DNA of 25,166 nt from a virus, in IMG/VR virus record IMGVR_UViG_3300025108_000352, positions 1 through 25,166 of that record. One strand, given 5' to 3'. Made by a program: the position numbers and the translations under genes. The notes under the pieces were generated by a model, which did not search any database, was not told the DNA's origin, and saw only the letters and a list, made by a program, of their open reading frames with translations. Position 1 is the stretch's first letter, and the number at the start of each line of letters is the position of its first letter. This document shows positions 6,855 through 25,166 of the stretch, piece after piece.

Positions 6855-8333
6855 ATGGCATTAATACCATTAGACATACCACCGGGGCAATACCGAAACG
6901 GTACAGATTTTCAAGCGTCTAACAGATGGCGAGATGCAAGTTTAGTTAGATGGCATGATGGATCAATGCGACCTGTTGGTGGATGGACAAGTAGAAAAGC
7001 TAGTGCATTTGCATCAGCACCTAGAGCAATGCTTTCGTTTCTTGATAATTCTAGTGACGAATATCTTGTAGGAGCAACGTACAACAAACTGTATTATGTA
7101 AATCCCTCACACACGGTTTACGACATAACACCTTCAGGACTAACATCAGGAAACCTAAACGGATCATTAAATCTTGGTTATGGTGGTGGTTTCTATGGAC
7201 ATGATAACTATGGATCAGCACCAACATCGTCAGGTGTATATGCAGAAGCAACAACTTGGTCGTTAGATACTTGGGGTGAATACTTATTAGCTTGTTCGTC
7301 AAAAGATGGCAAGATATACGAATGGCAATTGAACACAGGTGTAGTTGCGGCTCAAGTTAGCAACGCACCAGTAAGCAATAAAGGGATAGTAGTTACTGAA
7401 GAAAGGTTTGTATTTGCACTTGGCGCAGGTGGTAACCCTCGTAAAGTGGCATGGTGTGATCAAGAGAACAACACATCATGGACTGCGTCAGCTACAAACC
7501 AAGCGGGTGATTTTGAATTACAGACAACTGGTCAAATTATGAGTGGTTTGCGTATGAGAGGTAGAACTTTAATACTTACTGACAATGACGCACACGTAGC
7601 AACATACTCAGGCGCACCATTTGTCTATGGCTTTGAAAGAGTAGGCACAGCTTGTGGATTATCATCACGTAAAGGCGCTGTAGCAATCGATGAAGGTGCA
7701 TTTTGGATGGGTAAACGTGGTTTCTTCACGTTTGATGGCTCAGTTGCTAAAGAAATTAACTGTGAAGTGTCAGATTATGTGTTTGATGACCTAAATCAGT
7801 CACAAATAAGCAAGGTTTACGCTGTTCATAACTCTCAACACAGCGAAATATGGTGGTTTTACCCTTCAGGAACGTCAAACGAGAACGATAGATACGTTGC
7901 ACTTGATTATAAAGAGGGGCATTGGTCAACTGGAGAGTTAGATCGTACAGCAGGTGTAGATTCAGGAGTGTTTACTAACCCAATATGGGCAGATGCTAGT
8001 GGTAATTTGTATAATCAAGAAACAGGTTACACGCATGGCTCTACAAAACCATACGCAGAGTCAGGATCAATTAGTATTGGTAACGGTGACAGCATTATGA
8101 AAGTAACTCAGCTTATACCTGACGAAAAAACACAAGGACAAGTAGAAGTGACATTTAAGACACGTTTTTATCCGAATGATACTGAGTCCACACATGGTGC
8201 ATTTACGCTTACTAATCCTACAGATGTGCGCTTTCAGGGTAGACAAGTGCGAATAAAAGTACAAGGTACAGGTAACGACAACTGGAGATCAGGAGTTATG
8301 AGAATAGAAGCAAGTGCAGGAGGTAGACGATGA
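6855..8333 (+). CDS. Tail hub / DNA stabilisation protein, P22 gp10-like
   Basis: Probable tail closure protein of the P22 gp10 kind, which binds below the adaptor and retains packaged DNA. It starts IPLDIPPGQYRNGTDFQASN followed by RWRDASLVRWHDGSMRPVGGW (residues about 5-45), the recognisable opening of this family. It then shows repeated strand-turn units typical of a beta-propeller (for example SFLDNSSDEYLVGATYNKLYYV, TWGEYLLACSSKDGKIYEW and FWMGKRGFFTFDG), and a C-terminal beta domain. At 492 residues it is close to the usual length (P22 gp10 has 472). Only four bases separate it from the repeat protein. It ends in an ATGA overlap with the next small gene, preceded by GGAGG. Confidence 0.75.
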   Translation: MALIPLDIPPGQYRNGTDFQASNRWRDASLVRWHDGSMRPVGGWTSRKASAFASAPRAMLSFLDNSSDEYLVGATYNKLYYVNPSHTVYDITPSGLTSGNLNGSLNLGYGGGFYGHDNYGSAPTSSGVYAEATTWSLDTWGEYLLACSSKDGKIYEWQLNTGVVAAQVSNAPVSNKGIVVTEERFVFALGAGGNPRKVAWCDQENNTSWTASATNQAGDFELQTTGQIMSGLRMRGRTLILTDNDAHVATYSGAPFVYGFERVGTACGLSSRKGAVAIDEGAFWMGKRGFFTFDGSVAKEINCEVSDYVFDDLNQSQISKVYAVHNSQHSEIWWFYPSGTSNENDRYVALDYKEGHWSTGELDRTAGVDSGVFTNPIWADASGNLYNQETGYTHGSTKPYAESGSISIGNGDSIMKVTQLIPDEKTQGQVEVTFKTRFYPNDTESTHGAFTLTNPTDVRFQGRQVRIKVQGTGNDNWRSGVMRIEASAGGRR

Positions 8334-18982: not shown

Positions 18983-19837
18983 ATGGCAGATACAACTACT
19001 ACTACGTTCTCTTTGACAAAGCCTGAAGTGGGAGCTTCTGCTGATACTTGGGGAACAAAACTAAACACTAACTTAGATTCACTTGATGATCTGTTAGATG
19101 GCACAACAGCAATTAAACCAAATCTAACAGCAAGTCAATGGAAAGTAGGTGGTACAGCAATTACCTCAACTGGAGCAGAACTTAACATTCTTGATGGTGT
19201 TACATCTACTGCGGCAGAGTTAAATATTCTTGACGGTGTTACGTCAACAGCAGCTGAACTAAATTTATTAGATGGAGTTACAGCTACTACAGCAGAACTT
19301 AATTATGTAGATGGTGTTACAAGCGCAATACAAACACAACTAGATGCAAAACTAGCATTAGCAGGTGGCACTATGACAGGTGATTTGTTGTTAGGTTCAA
19401 ACAAAATAGGCGCTGATGCAGGTGATTACATTCAATTTACTGCTGACACTCAAATGGACTTTTATGTGAATGGCAATAACGAAATGCGATTAGAAGCTGA
19501 TGGTGATCTACACGTTGATGGTGATGTGATTGCTTACTCAAGCACTACAGCATCAAGTATTGCATTAAAGCATGATGTAAACATTATTGATAATGCACTA
19601 GAAAAACTACAGGCTCTTAAAGGTGTTAGTTTTAAATATAACCATGACAACAGAGAAAGCGCAGGTGTTATTGCTGAAGATGTAAAAAGAGTATTACCTG
19701 AAGCAGTAAAAGTTATTCCACCTCAGTTTGGTGCTGAAAAAACAAGTTTAGGTGTAAACTATGGTGCATTAACTTCAATATTGATTGAAGCAATAAAGGA
19801 GTTAACTGCGAAAGTAGAAAAACTGGAGAAAAAATAA
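18983..19837 (+). CDS. Tail fibre with C-terminal S74 intramolecular chaperone
   Basis: Probable trimeric tail fibre. The N-terminus (FSLTKPEVGASADTWGTKLN, residues 9-28) is a common anchor of phage fibres. Residues 65-113 hold four 13-residue AELN-x-(L/V)DGVT repeats. A beta-rich middle (125-185) includes MTGDLLLGSNKI. The end (191-284) is a Peptidase S74 domain: S191 and K196 in SSIALK match the catalytic Ser/Lys spacing, then AGVIAEDVKRVLPEAV, VNYGALTSILIEAIKEL and a coiled-coil tail. By analogy with endosialidase fibres, self-cleavage is expected just before S191, releasing the chaperone after trimer folding. AGGAG precedes the ATG. Receptor unknown; the protein is short for a fibre. Confidence 0.85.
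   Translation: MADTTTTTFSLTKPEVGASADTWGTKLNTNLDSLDDLLDGTTAIKPNLTASQWKVGGTAITSTGAELNILDGVTSTAAELNILDGVTSTAAELNLLDGVTATTAELNYVDGVTSAIQTQLDAKLALAGGTMTGDLLLGSNKIGADAGDYIQFTADTQMDFYVNGNNEMRLEADGDLHVDGDVIAYSSTTASSIALKHDVNIIDNALEKLQALKGVSFKYNHDNRESAGVIAEDVKRVLPEAVKVIPPQFGAEKTSLGVNYGALTSILIEAIKELTAKVEKLEKK
19175..19321 (+). repeat. Four 39-bp tandem repeats in the fibre gene
   Basis: Residues 65-113 of the fibre are four copies of a 13-residue unit, AELN-(I/I/L/Y)-(L/V)-DGVT plus three variable residues. The protein repeats are near perfect but the codons differ from copy to copy (for example leucine as ctt, tta or ctt/tta mixtures, glycine as ggt or gga), so the copies are not recent DNA duplications. 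Such AELN-LDGVT units are common in phage fibre shafts. Confidence 0.85.
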
Positions 19838-20883
19838 TGGCAGTTAAATCATCAGGCGCAAATTTATCAATACAAGGTGACATTGTTGCTGAGTTTGGTG
19901 GTTCAGCACCTCATGCACTAAGTGAATACTATGGTGGTGGTGGACTTGTACCAGCGGGTGCAAATCCAGGTGTTGCAACATCAGGTCAGATAAACATCGG
20001 ATCATTTTATGGCACAGTAGCGGCTACTGTATTAACTATATCTAGTAATACCAATGACTATAACATTAAAACTGCAGCAGTTGCGGCAGGTGGTGATACT
20101 AGTACACCAGTTATATTAACTATTAATAGTGGTGTAACAGTTGGATCGACATCAACAAGCACACCGGCTATGAAAACTGACACAGGTTGGTCTAATGGTG
20201 TAACAATTAATATTACTAACAATGGCTCTATTGTAGGAGCTGCAGGCGCTAATACAACAACCAATCCTTCTAGTGGAGGTGGCAACGGAGGTGGTGGCAC
20301 AAATCATCCAAATCAGGGTGGTCAATTTCCACCGGGTTCAGCAGGTCAAGGACATTCAGGATCAGCTTCATCATCTAATAATGGTGGTGTAGCATTTGAA
20401 CATTCGCAAACTGGCGATAATAATCTTTCTGTAATTTTTGATACAGCGGGAACTAGAACTGGTGGAGCTGCTGGCACAGCTACCTTTGTTGGAAATGGAG
20501 GTGGCGGCGGAGGTGGCGGCTCAGCTTTTGCAACACCACACAGGTTTGGTACCGGCGCAGGAGGAGGTGGCGGCGCAAATGGTGGTACAGGCGGCCCAGC
20601 ATATGGAATGCATTGGCATAGTGCAATGCGAGGCGATAATGGTGGATCAACAACAGGTGGTGAAGGTGGACAACCTTACAACCCTGGTCAAGCAATAGGT
20701 GGTGTTGGTGGTGATGGTGGAGATATAGGGCAAGCAGGTCAGAACGGACAAGCGGGTAACCCATTATCAGCCGGTCCATATACACCTACATCAGCATCAG
20801 CAGGTGGAGCTGCGGGTTCAACAGGAACAGCGTCAGGATCAGCAGGTTCAGCACTATCAGGAAATACAGGACAAATATCATAG
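19837..20883 (+). CDS. Glycine-rich adhesin (T4-type gp38-like architecture)
   Basis: Probable receptor-binding tail-tip protein. Residues 1-60 form an anchor (LSIQGDIVAEFGGSAPHALS, then YYGGGG and SGQINIGSFYGT) of a type common in marine phage structural proteins. Residues 61-135 are beta-rich (DYNIKTAAVAAGGDTSTPVI, then WSNGVTINITNNGSIVGAAG). Residues 145-348 are Gly-rich with four dense Gly tracts (about 145-155, 219-228, 240-252, 285-308) separated by variable aromatic/His segments such as FATPHRFG and AYGMHWHSAMRG. The same plan, polyglycine helices holding variable loops, is known from gp38 adhesins of T4-like phages. The gene starts in a TAATG overlap after GGAG. A collagen-like structural role is the alternative. 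Confidence 0.7.
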   Translation: MAVKSSGANLSIQGDIVAEFGGSAPHALSEYYGGGGLVPAGANPGVATSGQINIGSFYGTVAATVLTISSNTNDYNIKTAAVAAGGDTSTPVILTINSGVTVGSTSTSTPAMKTDTGWSNGVTINITNNGSIVGAAGANTTTNPSSGGGNGGGGTNHPNQGGQFPPGSAGQGHSGSASSSNNGGVAFEHSQTGDNNLSVIFDTAGTRTGGAAGTATFVGNGGGGGGGGSAFATPHRFGTGAGGGGGANGGTGGPAYGMHWHSAMRGDNGGSTTGGEGGQPYNPGQAIGGVGGDGGDIGQAGQNGQAGNPLSAGPYTPTSASAGGAAGSTGTASGSAGSALSGNTGQIS

Positions 20884-20892
20884 GAGTAAAAC

Positions 20893-21420
20893 ATGGCAAC
20901 ATTGACAGCAAGAAGAACTGAAGGAGGTCAATTTACTCCTGACGATACTATAGAAGTAACATTTGATTATGATGGAACTTTAATATACTGCGTACACTAT
21001 TTAGAAATAGTTAGTGGCGCAGAGGTTACACATGGTGGTGGAGCATCATCATCTACACCATTACATTACAAAGCAATAGAAAGAGATGCAGATGGTGATG
21101 GTGTAATTGATTACAGCACCGTTACGATGAAACTAGTGCAAACAGAAAAAGGTACTGCTGTAGTTAAGGCTTGTGCAAAACTAATAACTCAAGCAGATTG
21201 GAATACTTACAACACTAATCTTACTAATTGGTTAACAGCTAATTGCACACCGTCTGATACAGTAGAGCGAGAAGAAAGCGAAGGATTTAGGCATTCAGAT
21301 GGTAAAACGTATATAGCTAACGATGGTGTTTCAATGGATGATAGACCACTACCACCTGCTGAAACTGAGTATAAGACAGGAGATATTACTTTAGTATATA
21401 CAGACGATGATCCTGTCTAA
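20893..21420 (+). CDS. Unknown acidic protein with EF-hand-like loop
   Basis: A 175-residue protein that I do not recognise. The N-terminal part is beta-rich (TIEVTFDYDGTLIYCVHYLE). Residues 65-73 read DADGDGVID, the classic D-x-D-x-D-G calcium-binding loop seen in EF-hands and dockerins, but no paired second loop was found. The C-terminal part is polar with FRHSDGKTYIANDGVSMDD. AGGAG overlaps the adhesin's stop codon and serves this ATG, so the two are probably translated together. An accessory of the adhesin, such as a tail-tip part or folding helper, would fit the position; this is inference. Confidence 0.55.
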   Translation: MATLTARRTEGGQFTPDDTIEVTFDYDGTLIYCVHYLEIVSGAEVTHGGGASSSTPLHYKAIERDADGDGVIDYSTVTMKLVQTEKGTAVVKACAKLITQADWNTYNTNLTNWLTANCTPSDTVEREESEGFRHSDGKTYIANDGVSMDDRPLPPAETEYKTGDITLVYTDDDPV

Positions 21421-21450: not shown

Positions 21451-22098
21451 ATGATAGATCATTTATTTCCTATACCTATAGGCATATATGAAAGAACATT
21501 AAAAATTACAGATGATGAATTAAACTTCATCAAAAACTTAGAACGTAGATCAAACAAATCTAACGATACGACAGTTGATAGTTTTATATTACAGAATAAA
21601 AAACTAAATAATCTGTACAAATTTTTTAAACAATGTTTAGATGAATATCTAGAGCAAACTATAGCGCCTGATCAAGAACAAATACAATTCTATATAACAC
21701 AATCTTGGGCAAACTACACAAAAGGTGGCGAATATCATCAATTACATAAACACCAAAATTCTATAGTATCAGGTGTTTTTTATCCACAAGTTGAAGAAAA
21801 CGATAATATTACGTTTCGCAATTATGACGAAACAGCAGGTACACAGTTACCATTGTTAATACATCCAGTTTCATTTAATAGATACAACTCTGTGACGTGG
21901 AAATACCCTGTAAAGGTAGGTCAGTTGTATTTATTTCCTAGCGCTTTACAACATTGCGTTGAAACATTACCAAAAGATCAAGAAACAACAAGAATTTCAT
22001 TATCTTTTAACACTTGGTGTCAAGGTCAATTAGGTGATCCTACTCAGCTCAATGCATTAAATCTTATAAAGGAGGAAAGATATGATATTGCTGAATAA
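21451..22098 (+). CDS. Putative 2OG-Fe(II) oxygenase, first of three
   Basis: Resembles the small '2OG-Fe(II) oxygenase_5' type proteins frequent in marine phages: enzymes that hydroxylate a substrate using 2-oxoglutarate, O2 and Fe(II). What is seen: SWANYTKGGEYHQLHKHQNS with H96, H99 and H101, then SGVFYPQ (107-113), LYLFPSALQHCVE with H168, and TRISLSFNTW with R181 as the likely 2OG ligand. The N-terminus starts MIDHLFPIPIGIYE, a familiar opening for this family. A strong AAGGAGG (21439-21445) precedes the ATG. Substrate unknown. The last 17 bases overlap the next gene, whose own AAGGAGGA lies inside this one. Confidence 0.75.
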   Translation: MIDHLFPIPIGIYERTLKITDDELNFIKNLERRSNKSNDTTVDSFILQNKKLNNLYKFFKQCLDEYLEQTIAPDQEQIQFYITQSWANYTKGGEYHQLHKHQNSIVSGVFYPQVEENDNITFRNYDETAGTQLPLLIHPVSFNRYNSVTWKYPVKVGQLYLFPSALQHCVETLPKDQETTRISLSFNTWCQGQLGDPTQLNALNLIKEERYDIAE

Positions 22099-22624
22099 AC
22101 TGACAACACATGAAAAACAAAAAGAAATTTTGTTAGATAGAATAGAAAAATACAAGCTGAAAAAAAATTGCATATTGCCTACGAAATATGCTTCAAAAAA
22201 CAATGATAACCGTGTTTACTCAGATTATCATTTTAATAATACAGAAAAATTATTTAAAGACGATTTTTTTGAACACAAAGAGTTAGTAGAATTGTTAGCT
22301 AATATTGGCACAACAATGCACATGAATATGTTTGGTAATTTTTCAGTTAATAGAGATGATGCATGGTTTCAACAATATAGTGAAAATTCAGAACATACGT
22401 GGCATAACCATTCAAGAACACAGTTTACTAATATTTATTTTCTTGAGTTGCCTGACACAAAATACAAGACAGAAATTTGTGGACTCAATGGTAAATTAAT
22501 TGAGTACGAAGCAGAAGAAGGTGAAATATTAACCATGCCTGCGTTTTTGTTACACAGATCGAAACCTAACGGATCAAAGCGTAAAACAATTTTATCTTTT
22601 AATACTAATTACCAAAGTGCTTAG
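22082..22624 (+). CDS. Putative 2OG-Fe(II) oxygenase/cupin-like protein, second of three
   Basis: A 180-residue double-stranded beta-helix type protein from a different family than its neighbours. Seen: WFQQYSENSEHTWHNHSRTQ with H105, H108 and H110, FTNIYFLELPD (115-125), EEGEILTMPAFLLHRSKPNG with H158, and KRKTILSFNTNY with R167. The order 'H-x-W-H-x-H ... G-x-i-x-x-x-P-x-x-x-x-H-x-S ... R-K-T-x-x-S-F-N' fits Fe(II)-binding with a 2-oxoglutarate arginine. The N-terminal 90 residues are AT-rich in codons and charged. Translation is coupled to the preceding gene (17-base overlap, strong AAGGAGGA at 22069-22076). Its substrate is unknown. Confidence 0.68.
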   Translation: MILLNKLTTHEKQKEILLDRIEKYKLKKNCILPTKYASKNNDNRVYSDYHFNNTEKLFKDDFFEHKELVELLANIGTTMHMNMFGNFSVNRDDAWFQQYSENSEHTWHNHSRTQFTNIYFLELPDTKYKTEICGLNGKLIEYEAEEGEILTMPAFLLHRSKPNGSKRKTILSFNTNYQSA

Positions 22625-23386
22625 ATGAATAAACTACATTTATTAGCAGGTTTGCCAAGAACTGGAACAACAGTATTAGGCGCTATATTAAATCAAAACC
22701 CTGAAATGTATGTGTCTACAACATCGTCTTTTGTCGAATTGTTATGGCGAAATTATTCATTATGGTATGACGAAAAAGAAATACCATGCTTAGACACACA
22801 AGCTATAAAAAGAATGAAACATGAGTACCTCAGAAACGTAGGCAACATATGGTTTGAAAATTTAACAGAAAAAAACATAGTTATAGACAAAAGACGTATA
22901 TGGCACAGCATCCCAAACATAAAAATGTACAAAGAAATATATGGAGTCAAACCAAAAATTATCTGTACAGTAAGAGATATAGCAGAAATTGTTGTGTCGT
23001 TTATGAAAGTATTTGAAGCGAATGATGAACTTTTTGTGCATCACAAATCTTTAAACGGTGAAATGTATGGGGTAGTATATGATCGTTTAAAAGAAACTTT
23101 TTTTGATAGCTATTTTACTGAGTGTATACATATTGTTGAATACAACGACATTTGTAACAATACAGAAAAAACATTAAAAAACATTTACAAGTTTTTAGAA
23201 ATTGAACCGTATAAGCACGATCTTAAAAACATTGAAGTTTTTGAACAAGAAGGTAACCATCATTTTAAGAACTTACATGATATAAAAGGCACTTTAAATC
23301 CATCAGAAACAAATTTATTAGATTATTTGACACCACATGAAATTGACAAATACAACGCTGATATATTTTGGAAAACAAACGGATGA
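22625..23386 (+). CDS. Sulfotransferase-like protein
   Basis: Probable PAPS-dependent sulfotransferase. Residues 8-17 (AGLPRTGTTV) form the 5'-phosphosulfate loop at the very N-terminus, directly after a beta strand (KLHLL). IVIDKRRIWHSIP (85-97) and KIICTVRDIAEIVVSFMK (111-128) hold the 3'-phosphate-binding R117 and S125. The C-terminal half has an IVEYNDICNN strand-loop and TLKNIYKFLEIEPY, as in sulfotransferases of marine cyanophages and bacteria. The ATG follows the preceding stop immediately with no clear ribosome site, implying coupling. Local GC is very low (15 of 60 bases in 22921-22980). The acceptor could be a sugar, tyrosine or lipid; the sequence does not tell. Confidence 0.8.
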   Translation: MNKLHLLAGLPRTGTTVLGAILNQNPEMYVSTTSSFVELLWRNYSLWYDEKEIPCLDTQAIKRMKHEYLRNVGNIWFENLTEKNIVIDKRRIWHSIPNIKMYKEIYGVKPKIICTVRDIAEIVVSFMKVFEANDELFVHHKSLNGEMYGVVYDRLKETFFDSYFTECIHIVEYNDICNNTEKTLKNIYKFLEIEPYKHDLKNIEVFEQEGNHHFKNLHDIKGTLNPSETNLLDYLTPHEIDKYNADIFWKTNG

Positions 23387-23958
23387 TTAATTTTGACAAT
23401 GTAGACGATTATGTTGTTACAGATAACTTTATGCCAAAAGCATTTTGTGAAGAATACATAGAAAAAATTACAAAGCACAAGTGGGAAAAACACGTATGGA
23501 CACAACACGACAAACCTGATGAGTTTTTTTCAAGAGAAAATGAAGAATTAGATGTGCTTGATATACAAGGCGAATTGCACGAATTACTAAGTCCTTATGT
23601 TTTTCAAGCTATAAATAACTATCAGTCTAAATTTCAGACACCTGAAATGAAAGTACAAGCTGTACCGATAGGTCAATATTCAACTCCACGTTTAAATAGA
23701 TACTCAAAAGGTCAAGGTATGGCAAAACATCAAGATCACATCAGCTCTCTGTTTAAAAATTGGGAAGGAATACCAGTTTTAAGCATAGTAGGTGTATTTA
23801 ATGATGACTATGAAGGTGGTAATTTTATGTTGCGAGATAAAAAAATTGACTTGAAAACAGGAGATATATTGATGTTTCCATCATTGTTTATATACACACA
23901 TGAAGTAACTTTAGTTACAAAAGGTGTTCGTCATTCTTTTGTAAGCTGGGCATACTAG
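23383..23958 (+). CDS. 2OG-Fe(II) oxygenase, prolyl-4-hydroxylase/PKHD-like, third of three
   Basis: The clearest dioxygenase of the cassette. Seen (numbering from the ATG at 23383, 191 residues): LNRYSKGQGMAKHQDHISSL with the H116-x-D118 pair, then GVFNDDYEGGNFMLRDKKID (the family's 'L-N-D-x-Y-x-G-G-x-F' run), GDILMFPSLFIYTHEV with the third ligand H173, and TKGVRHSFVSWAY with the 2-oxoglutarate arginine R183. All expected ligands are present, so activity is likely. A TTG at 23368 would add five residues, but the ATG is preferred because it overlaps the sulfotransferase stop as ATGA. Substrate unknown; relatives hydroxylate protein side chains or small molecules. Confidence 0.85.
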   Translation: MINFDNVDDYVVTDNFMPKAFCEEYIEKITKHKWEKHVWTQHDKPDEFFSRENEELDVLDIQGELHELLSPYVFQAINNYQSKFQTPEMKVQAVPIGQYSTPRLNRYSKGQGMAKHQDHISSLFKNWEGIPVLSIVGVFNDDYEGGNFMLRDKKIDLKTGDILMFPSLFIYTHEVTLVTKGVRHSFVSWAY

Positions 23959-23966
23959 GTTAAACT

Positions 23967-24521
23967 ATGAATATGAAAACAAAATTAGCCTTATTTTTAA
24001 TAGTTTTTGTGTTTCCTGTACTTGCAGTTGACGAAAGCTCAATAACGCAAAATACGACATCTACGGTGACTACAAAGTCAGAAAACGAAACTACAGTTTA
24101 CTCACCACCACCAAGCGCCATATCACCAAACGTAGGTGGCACAAATTCAGATTTATGTACGATCTCATCTAGTGGTGCTATGGGTACACAAATATTTTCA
24201 TTAAGTCTAGGTGCTACATATACTGAAGAAAATTGTATAAGACTGAAAATGGCTAAGACATTGTATGATTTTGGTATGAAGGTTGCCGCAGTAAGCCTTT
24301 TGTGCGCTGATCCTTCGGGTGAAGTGCATCGCAGTATGGCTATGGCCGGGACTCCCTGCCCCTATATGGGTTTAATAGGCTCAGAGGCTACTGCAGCATG
24401 GGAGGTGCATAGCGATGAAATTCCTGTTCCTAGCATAGACTTGCAAAAAACTACGGAGGAGAAAAGAGATGATGTTATTAAGATCATGGGCGCTATTGCT
24501 TCTGCTTTTTTGTTCTTCTAG
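23967..24521 (+). CDS. Secreted or envelope-targeted conserved phage protein
   Basis: A 184-residue protein with a clear signal peptide (MNMKTKLALFLIVFVFPVLA, cleavage predicted after A20). A Ser/Thr-rich linker with a PPPSAISPNVGG stretch follows, then a Cys-containing block: CTISSSG, EENCIRLKMAKTLYDFGMKV, AAVSLLCADPSGEVHRSMAM and AGTPCPYMG. The four Cys in this block suggest disulfides in the periplasm. The last 15 residues are hydrophobic (IKIMGAIASAFLFF). I recall the 'C.RLK..r.LYD.GMKVAAV..LC' block from many marine phages, without a known role. A second in-frame ATG (23973) is possible. Its last 53 bases overlap the next gene's signal-peptide region in another frame. Confidence 0.7.
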   Translation: MNMKTKLALFLIVFVFPVLAVDESSITQNTTSTVTTKSENETTVYSPPPSAISPNVGGTNSDLCTISSSGAMGTQIFSLSLGATYTEENCIRLKMAKTLYDFGMKVAAVSLLCADPSGEVHRSMAMAGTPCPYMGLIGSEATAAWEVHSDEIPVPSIDLQKTTEEKRDDVIKIMGAIASAFLFF

Positions 24522-25166
24522 CGTAACTGCTTACAGTTTTGGCTACACACCTAACGTAGCTATTAGTGGCTTAGAATGGACAATGACTCCTACTTATCTT
24601 GGTGCTAATGGTATTGGTGGTATGGATGTATCAGGTGTCACTTACAAATACACACCAATAAAAAACAAAGAAGATGATTACGTTGTTACTCTTGAGAATG
24701 ACAAAGTAGGTGGTGGTTATGTGTTTCAAGACAAACAAGATTGGTCACAACGAGAAGGTGGTATTGAGGTAAGAAGAACTATTGCTTTGCCATACACTCC
24801 TATTGCAGTATTTGGCGATGGTAGGCTAAAGCAAGAAGGCACAGGAAGTATAGAAAATGCTGATGTTAGATATATCTATAGGTTTGATCCCTGCTTTGAT
24901 CCTCAGAGCGATCCTAATTGCCCCGGTTATAAAAAACCTAAACCACCTCCATTGCCTAAAATTCCTGAGTACGATGCGTTGCAAGATGAGTCAGTAGCTA
25001 TAGCACAAGCTGAAACAGACAAAAAACTAATAGAAGAAGAACAAGCAAAAAAAGAAGAAGATGAAGAGGAGGAAAAAGAATCACTAGAGGTTATGTTAGC
25101 TGATGTAGAAAACGCTATAACAATGGCAAACGAAATATCGCAATCAATTGTATTACAACAGCTTAA
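24469..25166 (+). CDS. Exported protein with acidic coiled tail (cut off by window end)
   Basis: An open frame of at least 232 codons runs off the window. GGAGGA (24455-24460) lies eight bases before ATG 24469, one of the best ribosome sites here; a tandem ATG is at 24472. The signal peptide is residues 1 to about 21 (LLRSWALLLLLFCSSSVTA, cleavage likely after A). The mature part is beta-rich (VAISGLEWTMTPTYLGANGI), with a Cys motif near FDPCFDPQSDPNCPGYKKPK and a Pro-rich hinge. It then has a Glu/Lys-rich helix (KKLIEEEQAKKEEDEEEEKE) and a probable coiled coil. No function is known to me. It pairs with the preceding exported protein, suggesting a joint envelope role such as lysis, exclusion or virion-associated. 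Confidence 0.72.
   Translation, partial: MMLLRSWALLLLLFCSSSVTAYSFGYTPNVAISGLEWTMTPTYLGANGIGGMDVSGVTYKYTPIKNKEDDYVVTLENDKVGGGYVFQDKQDWSQREGGIEVRRTIALPYTPIAVFGDGRLKQEGTGSIENADVRYIYRFDPCFDPQSDPNCPGYKKPKPPPLPKIPEYDALQDESVAIAQAETDKKLIEEEQAKKEEDEEEEKESLEVMLADVENAITMANEISQSIVLQQL

Follow-up and report, generated by a model that had tools for sequence, protein, structure and literature searches.

The window, that is, the whole stretch of 25,166 bases analysed, is IMG/VR record IMGVR_UViG_3300025108_000352 at full length and belongs to a podovirus-like phage. Octadecabacter Antarctic DB virus 2 is the phage closest to its portal (44%) and capsid (68%). Downstream of the capsid gene lie, in this order, an S74 tail fibre, a glycine-rich adhesin, a companion of the adhesin, two oxygenases (ox1 and ox2), a sulfotransferase, a third oxygenase (ox3) and a conserved right flank (Table 1). 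The four enzyme genes are real and intact. Their coordinates, their order and their position behind the adhesin and companion are as given in the initial annotation, as is their coupling, which consists of a 17-base overlap (22082–22098), an abutting stop and start (22624/22625) and an ATGA (23383–23386). An AGGAGG ribosome site precedes the ox1 start at 21451. The block is AT-richer than its surroundings, with a GC content of 30–34% against 38–46%. Scanning for promoters and terminators gave no signal above chance. Because the same four genes are present with near-identical sequence on contigs of three further metagenomes, the block is neither a chance arrangement nor an assembly error.

Table 1. 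Genes of the window from the tail fibre to the right flank of the enzyme slot
Feature	Position	Strand	Evidence
S74-type tail fibre protein, 5' of the adhesin	18983..19837	+	PF13884 (2.1e-12); many PHROG tail fibre families
Gly-rich adhesin, gp38-like architecture	19837..20883	+	Up to 42% Gly per 100 residues; Gly-rich stretches and variable segments alternate
Adhesin companion	20893..21420	+	Among the capsid relatives, seen with this adhesin type only
ox1, 2OG-Fe(II) oxygenase PF13759	21451..22098	+	PF13759 (1.1e-17); phrog_81 (4.3e-37)
ox2, divergent PF13759-like oxygenase	22082..22624	+	PF13759 (1.4e-5); phrog_81 (2.3e-18); structure-model match
PAPS-dependent sulfotransferase	22625..23386	+	PF13469 (6e-14); PF00685 (1e-12); 5'-PSB and 3'-PB motifs
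ox3, 2OG-Fe(II) oxygenase PF13640	23383..23958	+	PF13640 (2.1e-9); HxD...H...R
Conserved protein flanking the slot on the right, outside the cassette	23967..24521	+	Signal-peptide-like N-terminus; phrog_20531

Judged from its sequence, the adhesin resembles gp38-type polyglycine adhesins in having glycine-rich motifs that alternate with variable segments. No match was obtained when it was searched against solved structures, nor for the companion against Pfam and PHROG. In relatives, the N-terminus of the adhesin is conserved and the glycine-rich part is divergent. The region behind the adhesin and companion is hereafter called the slot. The right flank is found in order 3' of it in relatives, with 82–94% identity in the nearest ones. 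In the window, two conserved genes with signal-peptide-like starts (23967–25166) close the slot. In relatives, a cysteine-rich protein of 60–72 residues with CxxC pairs often opens the slot a short distance 3' of the companion or adhesin (L008:5618–5803 and loci L009, L025, L026 and L043, L numbers designating the loci compared).

Oxygenases and sulfotransferase of the cassette

ox1 scores 64.6 bits against PF13759, above the Pfam cut-off of 27, and its putative metal-site pattern HxH...H...R (H99, H101, H168, R181) is conserved throughout the alignment. ox2, with 25.8 bits, falls below the same cut-off of 27 and is termed PF13759-like only. Its pattern is HxH...H...K/R (H108, H110, H158, R168), in which H108, H110 and H158 are invariant in the alignment. 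The model of ox2 (pLDDT 70) forms a double-stranded β-helix and matches 2rg4 and 3bvc with Z scores of 17.9 and 17.6 over 166 residues. After uncharacterised PF13759 proteins, the next-nearest structures are PKHD and HIF prolyl hydroxylases. Although ox1 and ox2 are 14–18% identical, both match phrog_81, they cluster together and they share the HxH...H...R/K pattern. They had been described as two different small families, and the cassette as containing three dissimilar oxygenases; as ox1 and ox2 belong to the same family, there are two oxygenase families instead, the PF13759-type of ox1 and ox2 and the PF13640 type of ox3. At the position of the second His of HxH, Asp or Glu is found in most 2OG enzymes; this His of ox1 and ox2 is also present in nearly all the relatives aligned. 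One PF13759-like member (L008:7535–8176) has DVC where HxH is expected and is possibly inactive or provided with another metal site.

ox3 scores 38.7 bits against PF13640 (cut-off 27), and the HxD...H...R residues are conserved in the alignment. Their numbering as H116, D118, H173 and R183 in the initial annotation is correct if translation starts at ATG 23383, which is more likely than a start at TTG 23368, from which they would be H121, D123, H178 and R188. Against the PDB, ox3 weakly matches the PKHD hydroxylase PiuC (E 0.0068).

The sulfotransferase scores above the cut-off with both PF13469 (53.2 bits) and PF00685 (48.4 bits). Its 5'-PSB is LPRTGTT and its 3'-PB is R117/S125; P11, R12, G14, R117 and S125 are invariant in 29 aligned sequences. 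The best match of its model (pLDDT 89.9) is to TPST1 (Z 18.3), with Z scores of 17.5–18.3 for TPST1 and TPST2 over about 235 residues, 15.5 for a polyketide-synthase sulfotransferase and 13.6 for heparan sulfate 3-O-sulfotransferases. The catalytic glutamate of TPSTs belongs to a GEET motif and is Glu99 in TPST2. T32 and T33 of the window protein align with the TPST glutamate pair, and the profile consensus is likewise not Glu at these positions. Because of the two threonines, the protein is not filed as a tyrosylprotein sulfotransferase. It resembles TPST1 and TPST2 in fold and PAPS motifs (Z 18), but also differs from them in lacking a membrane anchor and in an identity of about 14%. The common fold predicted by the model leaves the substrate unfixed.

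The acidic C-terminus of the companion (EYKTG, VYTDDD) was considered as a tyrosine sulfation target and dropped as support, because the sulfotransferase phage L079, which has the same companion, lacks both tyrosines, and L008, which has no sulfotransferase, has the second. No acidic tyrosine motif of the companion tracks with the sulfotransferase. A bacterial origin of the sulfotransferase was also set aside: the best matches, in Bacteroidetes bins, are only 26–28% identical, and one locus there gave no clear origin.

Turnover of the slot between conserved flanks

Seventy-nine loci were retrieved by the major capsid protein (MCP) and scored with profiles built from slot proteins. Between the MCP and the right flank, 59 modifier genes were found in 259 kb, and none in the 568 kb outside, where early genes are hardly sampled because mostly structural genes are present. 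Once tail genes were removed, 57 of the 69 slot ORFs with a length of 150 residues or more proved to be modifiers, and oxygenases occur in 15 of the 19 slots whose right end is the conserved flank gene. The kinds encountered are PF13759, PF13640, other 2OG-like families named oxC to oxH (two of which match DUF6445, above or below the cut-off), JmjC_2, tryptophan halogenase PF04820, sulfotransferase and, in the slot of L081, a CmcI-type methyltransferase. The halogenases lie behind a Gly-rich adhesin at L024:14240–15745 (1.7e-101) and L030:7356–8813; the halogenase scan returned its own contig only. A family of 230 residues without Pfam match, phrog_17480, accompanies slot oxygenases (L018:15098–15787, and L021, L033, L040, L042 and L056).

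The exact four-gene set is confined to the near-identical contigs, and the sets differ in nearly every relative. When their co-occurrence was checked, the four genes were found apart, in other combinations and sometimes as a lone oxygenase or a lone sulfotransferase. They are therefore not one conserved pathway, as had been proposed; the conserved feature is the slot with its class of enzymes, not the gene set.

In relatives with 95–97% capsid identity, the adhesin and everything behind it are replaced between conserved flanks, again by almost nothing but modifying enzymes. Between the window and L008, identity is 97% for the MCP, 89% for the S74 fibre, 59% for the adhesin, 39% for the companion and 94% for the right flank, and no slot gene has a counterpart more than 26% identical. 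This profile indicates that the adhesin and slot have been exchanged between conserved flanks. With its variable recognition genes flanked by conserved ones, the block has the make-up of a hypervariable host-recognition island of marine phages. In the loci that extend 4 kb or more past the capsid gene, modifiers are present in 15/16 of those with a Gly-rich adhesin and in 7/18 of those without (Fisher p 0.001, ignoring relatedness). In the seven modifier loci that lack this adhesin, the S74 fibre is followed by a different conserved pair of fibre-associated genes (p103/p140).

Some of the slot enzymes, namely the tryptophan halogenases and the CmcI-type methyltransferase, resemble tailoring enzymes, and the sulfotransferase profile has further matches among the sulfotransferase domains of polyketide synthases. 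These observations would agree with the making of a modified peptide or small molecule (a toxin, a siderophore-like or a signalling compound), an explanation that is considered very improbable, as neither a scaffold-making enzyme nor a conserved precursor peptide was recognised in the slots, and as enzyme sets change completely between close relatives.

Related gene orders in other phages

The genes had been taken for modifying enzymes, and this stands: their motifs are intact, and phages both related and unrelated, cultured SAR11 phages among them, repeatedly have such genes behind the adhesin. At a different genome position, in L168–L183, a Gly-rich fibre is followed by a gene of 93 residues, up to six oxygenases in tandem and a phrog_3287-type structural gene, the window relative of which (6855–8333) is far from the cassette. 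dN/dS in these arrays is mostly 0.1–0.3, with one value of 0.68; the low values, which denote purifying selection, imply that the array oxygenases are maintained as proteins. In L210, a Gly-rich fibre, with a fibre-associated gene, has a mixed-strand run of oxygenases behind it. The order in L096 is Gly-rich fibre, fibre-associated gene, sulfotransferase and PF13759-like oxygenase, and DSL-LC04 has a Gly-rich protein, a gene of 94 residues and an ox1 relative at 40.5%. Many freshwater sulfotransferase loci likewise lie behind Gly-rich ORFs. Within the freshwater loci, which include L103, L105, L122 and L124, some contain two or three genes for sulfotransferases in the vicinity of Gly-rich ORFs.

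Two cultured phages with SAR11 hosts have the same layout. In HTVC033P, the Gly-rich gp64 and gp62 (the latter matching PF21722) are followed by oxygenases gp61 and gp60 and "ferrochelatase" gp58. HTVC023P has two such sites, one with Gly-rich gp61/gp62, a fibre-associated gene, oxygenases gp65 and gp66 and "ferrochelatase" gp67, the other with Gly-rich gp70 followed by oxygenase gp71.

The names of several phage genes deserve comment. "Ferrochelatase" YP_214401 of P-SSM2 (L212:8962–9555) scores as a PF13640 oxygenase, with 41% identity to the window ox3. The "ferrochelatases" of the pelagiphages HTVC033P (gp58, L216:9007–9651) and HTVC023P (gp67, L217:7998–8618) have no Pfam match and contain an HxD...H pattern. 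The published pairing of ferrochelatase and 2OG oxygenase in pelagiphages may simply be one of tandem oxygenases. Several proteins that bear the name of DNA endonuclease V resemble 2OG oxygenases: the P-SSM2 denV (L212:6745–7314) reaches 27.3 bits with PF13640, the S-B64 "endonuclease V" (L215:5492–5995) weakly matches PF13661, and phrog_274, of the same name, matches the oxC family.

Marine phages often carry 2OG-Fe(II) oxygenases as accessory genes without an explained role, for which DNA repair or nitrogen sensing is the usual guess. In agreement with published proposals for cyanophage oxygenases (PMC3037559), the enzymes of the slot could act on nucleic acids, in repair or modification, or in 2OG/nitrogen metabolism, the slot being merely a tolerant insertion site. 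In T4-like cyanophages (P-SSM2), homologues of these oxygenase families indeed lie among replication genes. However, a tolerant site should hold mixed cargo, not the preponderance of modifiers counted among the larger slot genes, and a sulfotransferase and a halogenase are unfit for repair. The older repair argument also leans on neighbours like "denV", and is weakened because the "denV" and "ferrochelatase" of P-SSM2 themselves score as PF13640 oxygenases. This role is regarded as improbable.

Target of the enzymes and known systems

The observed anatomy of the locus, the intact motifs, the turnover of adhesin and slot, and the recurrence of the enzyme class behind adhesins elsewhere form part of a wider reading, put forward tentatively and at close to an even chance: a host-recognition module of a marine podovirus, in which a Gly-rich gp38-like adhesin and its companion are combined with an exchangeable modifier slot, the enzymes acting on the adhesin or tail tip. 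That enzyme sets are swapped at the same site suggests chemical modification by these phages, either of the protein with which they bind or of the host surface. The adhesin or tail tip would be the most likely target, and the host surface otherwise.

In such a module, the enzymes would be made late, together with virion proteins. The oxygenases would hydroxylate residues of the adhesin or tail tip, the sulfotransferase, where present, would sulfate, and halogenation may take place in some phages. The modified residues are probably in the variable loops between the glycine runs of the adhesin. The chemistry of the binding surface would thereby exceed that of 20 amino acids, and a swapped enzyme set would shift receptor preference. 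Adsorption or superinfection may be affected, as had been proposed. Rather than working in one chain, the enzymes may each act at a site of their own.

In favour of the adhesin or tail tip as the target, the genes neighbour the adhesin in the structural part of the genome, and protein modifiers are among the nearest folds. Against it, the TPST glutamate is replaced, and neither the companion motif nor the adhesin composition tracks the enzyme set: the Pro, Tyr or Trp content of the adhesin shows no pattern with hydroxylase, sulfotransferase or halogenase. The seven modifier loci without a Gly-rich adhesin and the oxygenase families placed among cyanophage replication genes also count against it.

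The main rival holds that the enzymes act late in infection on the host surface, namely on LPS, the capsule or outer-membrane proteins, and would thereby block superinfection or the binding of progeny to debris. The slot would then be next to the adhesin because each is matched to the same receptor, which fits their joint switch. In phage S-SRM01, the sulfotransferase adjoins a glycosyltransferase and a nucleotide-sugar epimerase; PMC7824862 proposes that a cyanophage halogenase/2OG cluster decorates capsular polysaccharide or a secondary metabolite; and glycosyltransferases in a pelagimyophage host-recognition cluster have been argued to serve surface change and coinfection avoidance (PMC7029224). 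On the other hand, the slot genes of the window relatives included none recognised as coding for a glycosyltransferase, an epimerase or a membrane protein, and the modelled sulfotransferase fold is nearer to protein than to polysaccharide sulfotransferases. Modification of the host surface is held to be rather unlikely.

Were the adhesin the substrate, phage host range would acquire a new layer in post-translational modification, and host prediction based on the adhesin sequence alone would miss it. It is conceivable, if doubtful, that aquatic phages widely modify the loops of Gly-rich adhesins with exchangeable enzyme sets dedicated to this purpose, made up of oxygenases, sulfotransferases and halogenases, and so diversify their receptor-binding surface and host range. 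The idea of adhesin or host-surface modification is testable in cultured ocean phages, some of which share this layout.

Several described systems come close. Among the most frequent genes of metaviromic islands, which are variable host-recognition regions, Mizuno et al. 2014 (PMC3909814) list Fe(II)-dependent oxygenases (8) and gp38 adhesins (3). The islands are alike in this combination; tandem arrays, a sulfotransferase, a halogenase, a tie to Gly-rich adhesins and a mechanism are absent from the portion of that description concerned with them. The cyanophage clusters for sugar and amino-acid modification of Iyer et al. 2021 (PMC7824862) likewise bring together a halogenase, 2OG oxygenases and methyltransferases in one phage, but in jumbo cyanophages and with carbamoyltransferases and HAD phosphatases, and the account of these clusters does not mention adhesin-adjacent placement in the section concerned. 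The HTVC023P-type pelagiphages (PMC9599517) carry several non-orthologous 2OG genes with a "ferrochelatase", treated there as iron or metabolic partner genes. The oxygenase families are the same as in the window, whereas here the "ferrochelatase" looks like a further oxygenase, and a Gly-rich adhesin precedes the run. Phages of OM43 carry a 2OG oxygenase and a sulfotransferase, the function of the latter being called unclear (PMC10580990), and phage oxygenases show high pN/pS in the Mediterranean (PMC6832022). In the open-licence literature, no paper was found that ties such oxygenase arrays to Gly-rich adhesins. Oxygenases in variable host-recognition islands have been known since 2014; their arrays and their tie to Gly-rich adhesins seem to be undescribed. 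Finally, the gp38 adhesin of S16 and T-even phages (PDB 6F45, PMC6851490) has no sequence match to the window adhesin, and its description includes no modifying enzymes; the likeness is one of architecture in sequence, with hypervariable segments placed between glycine-rich motifs at the tail tip.
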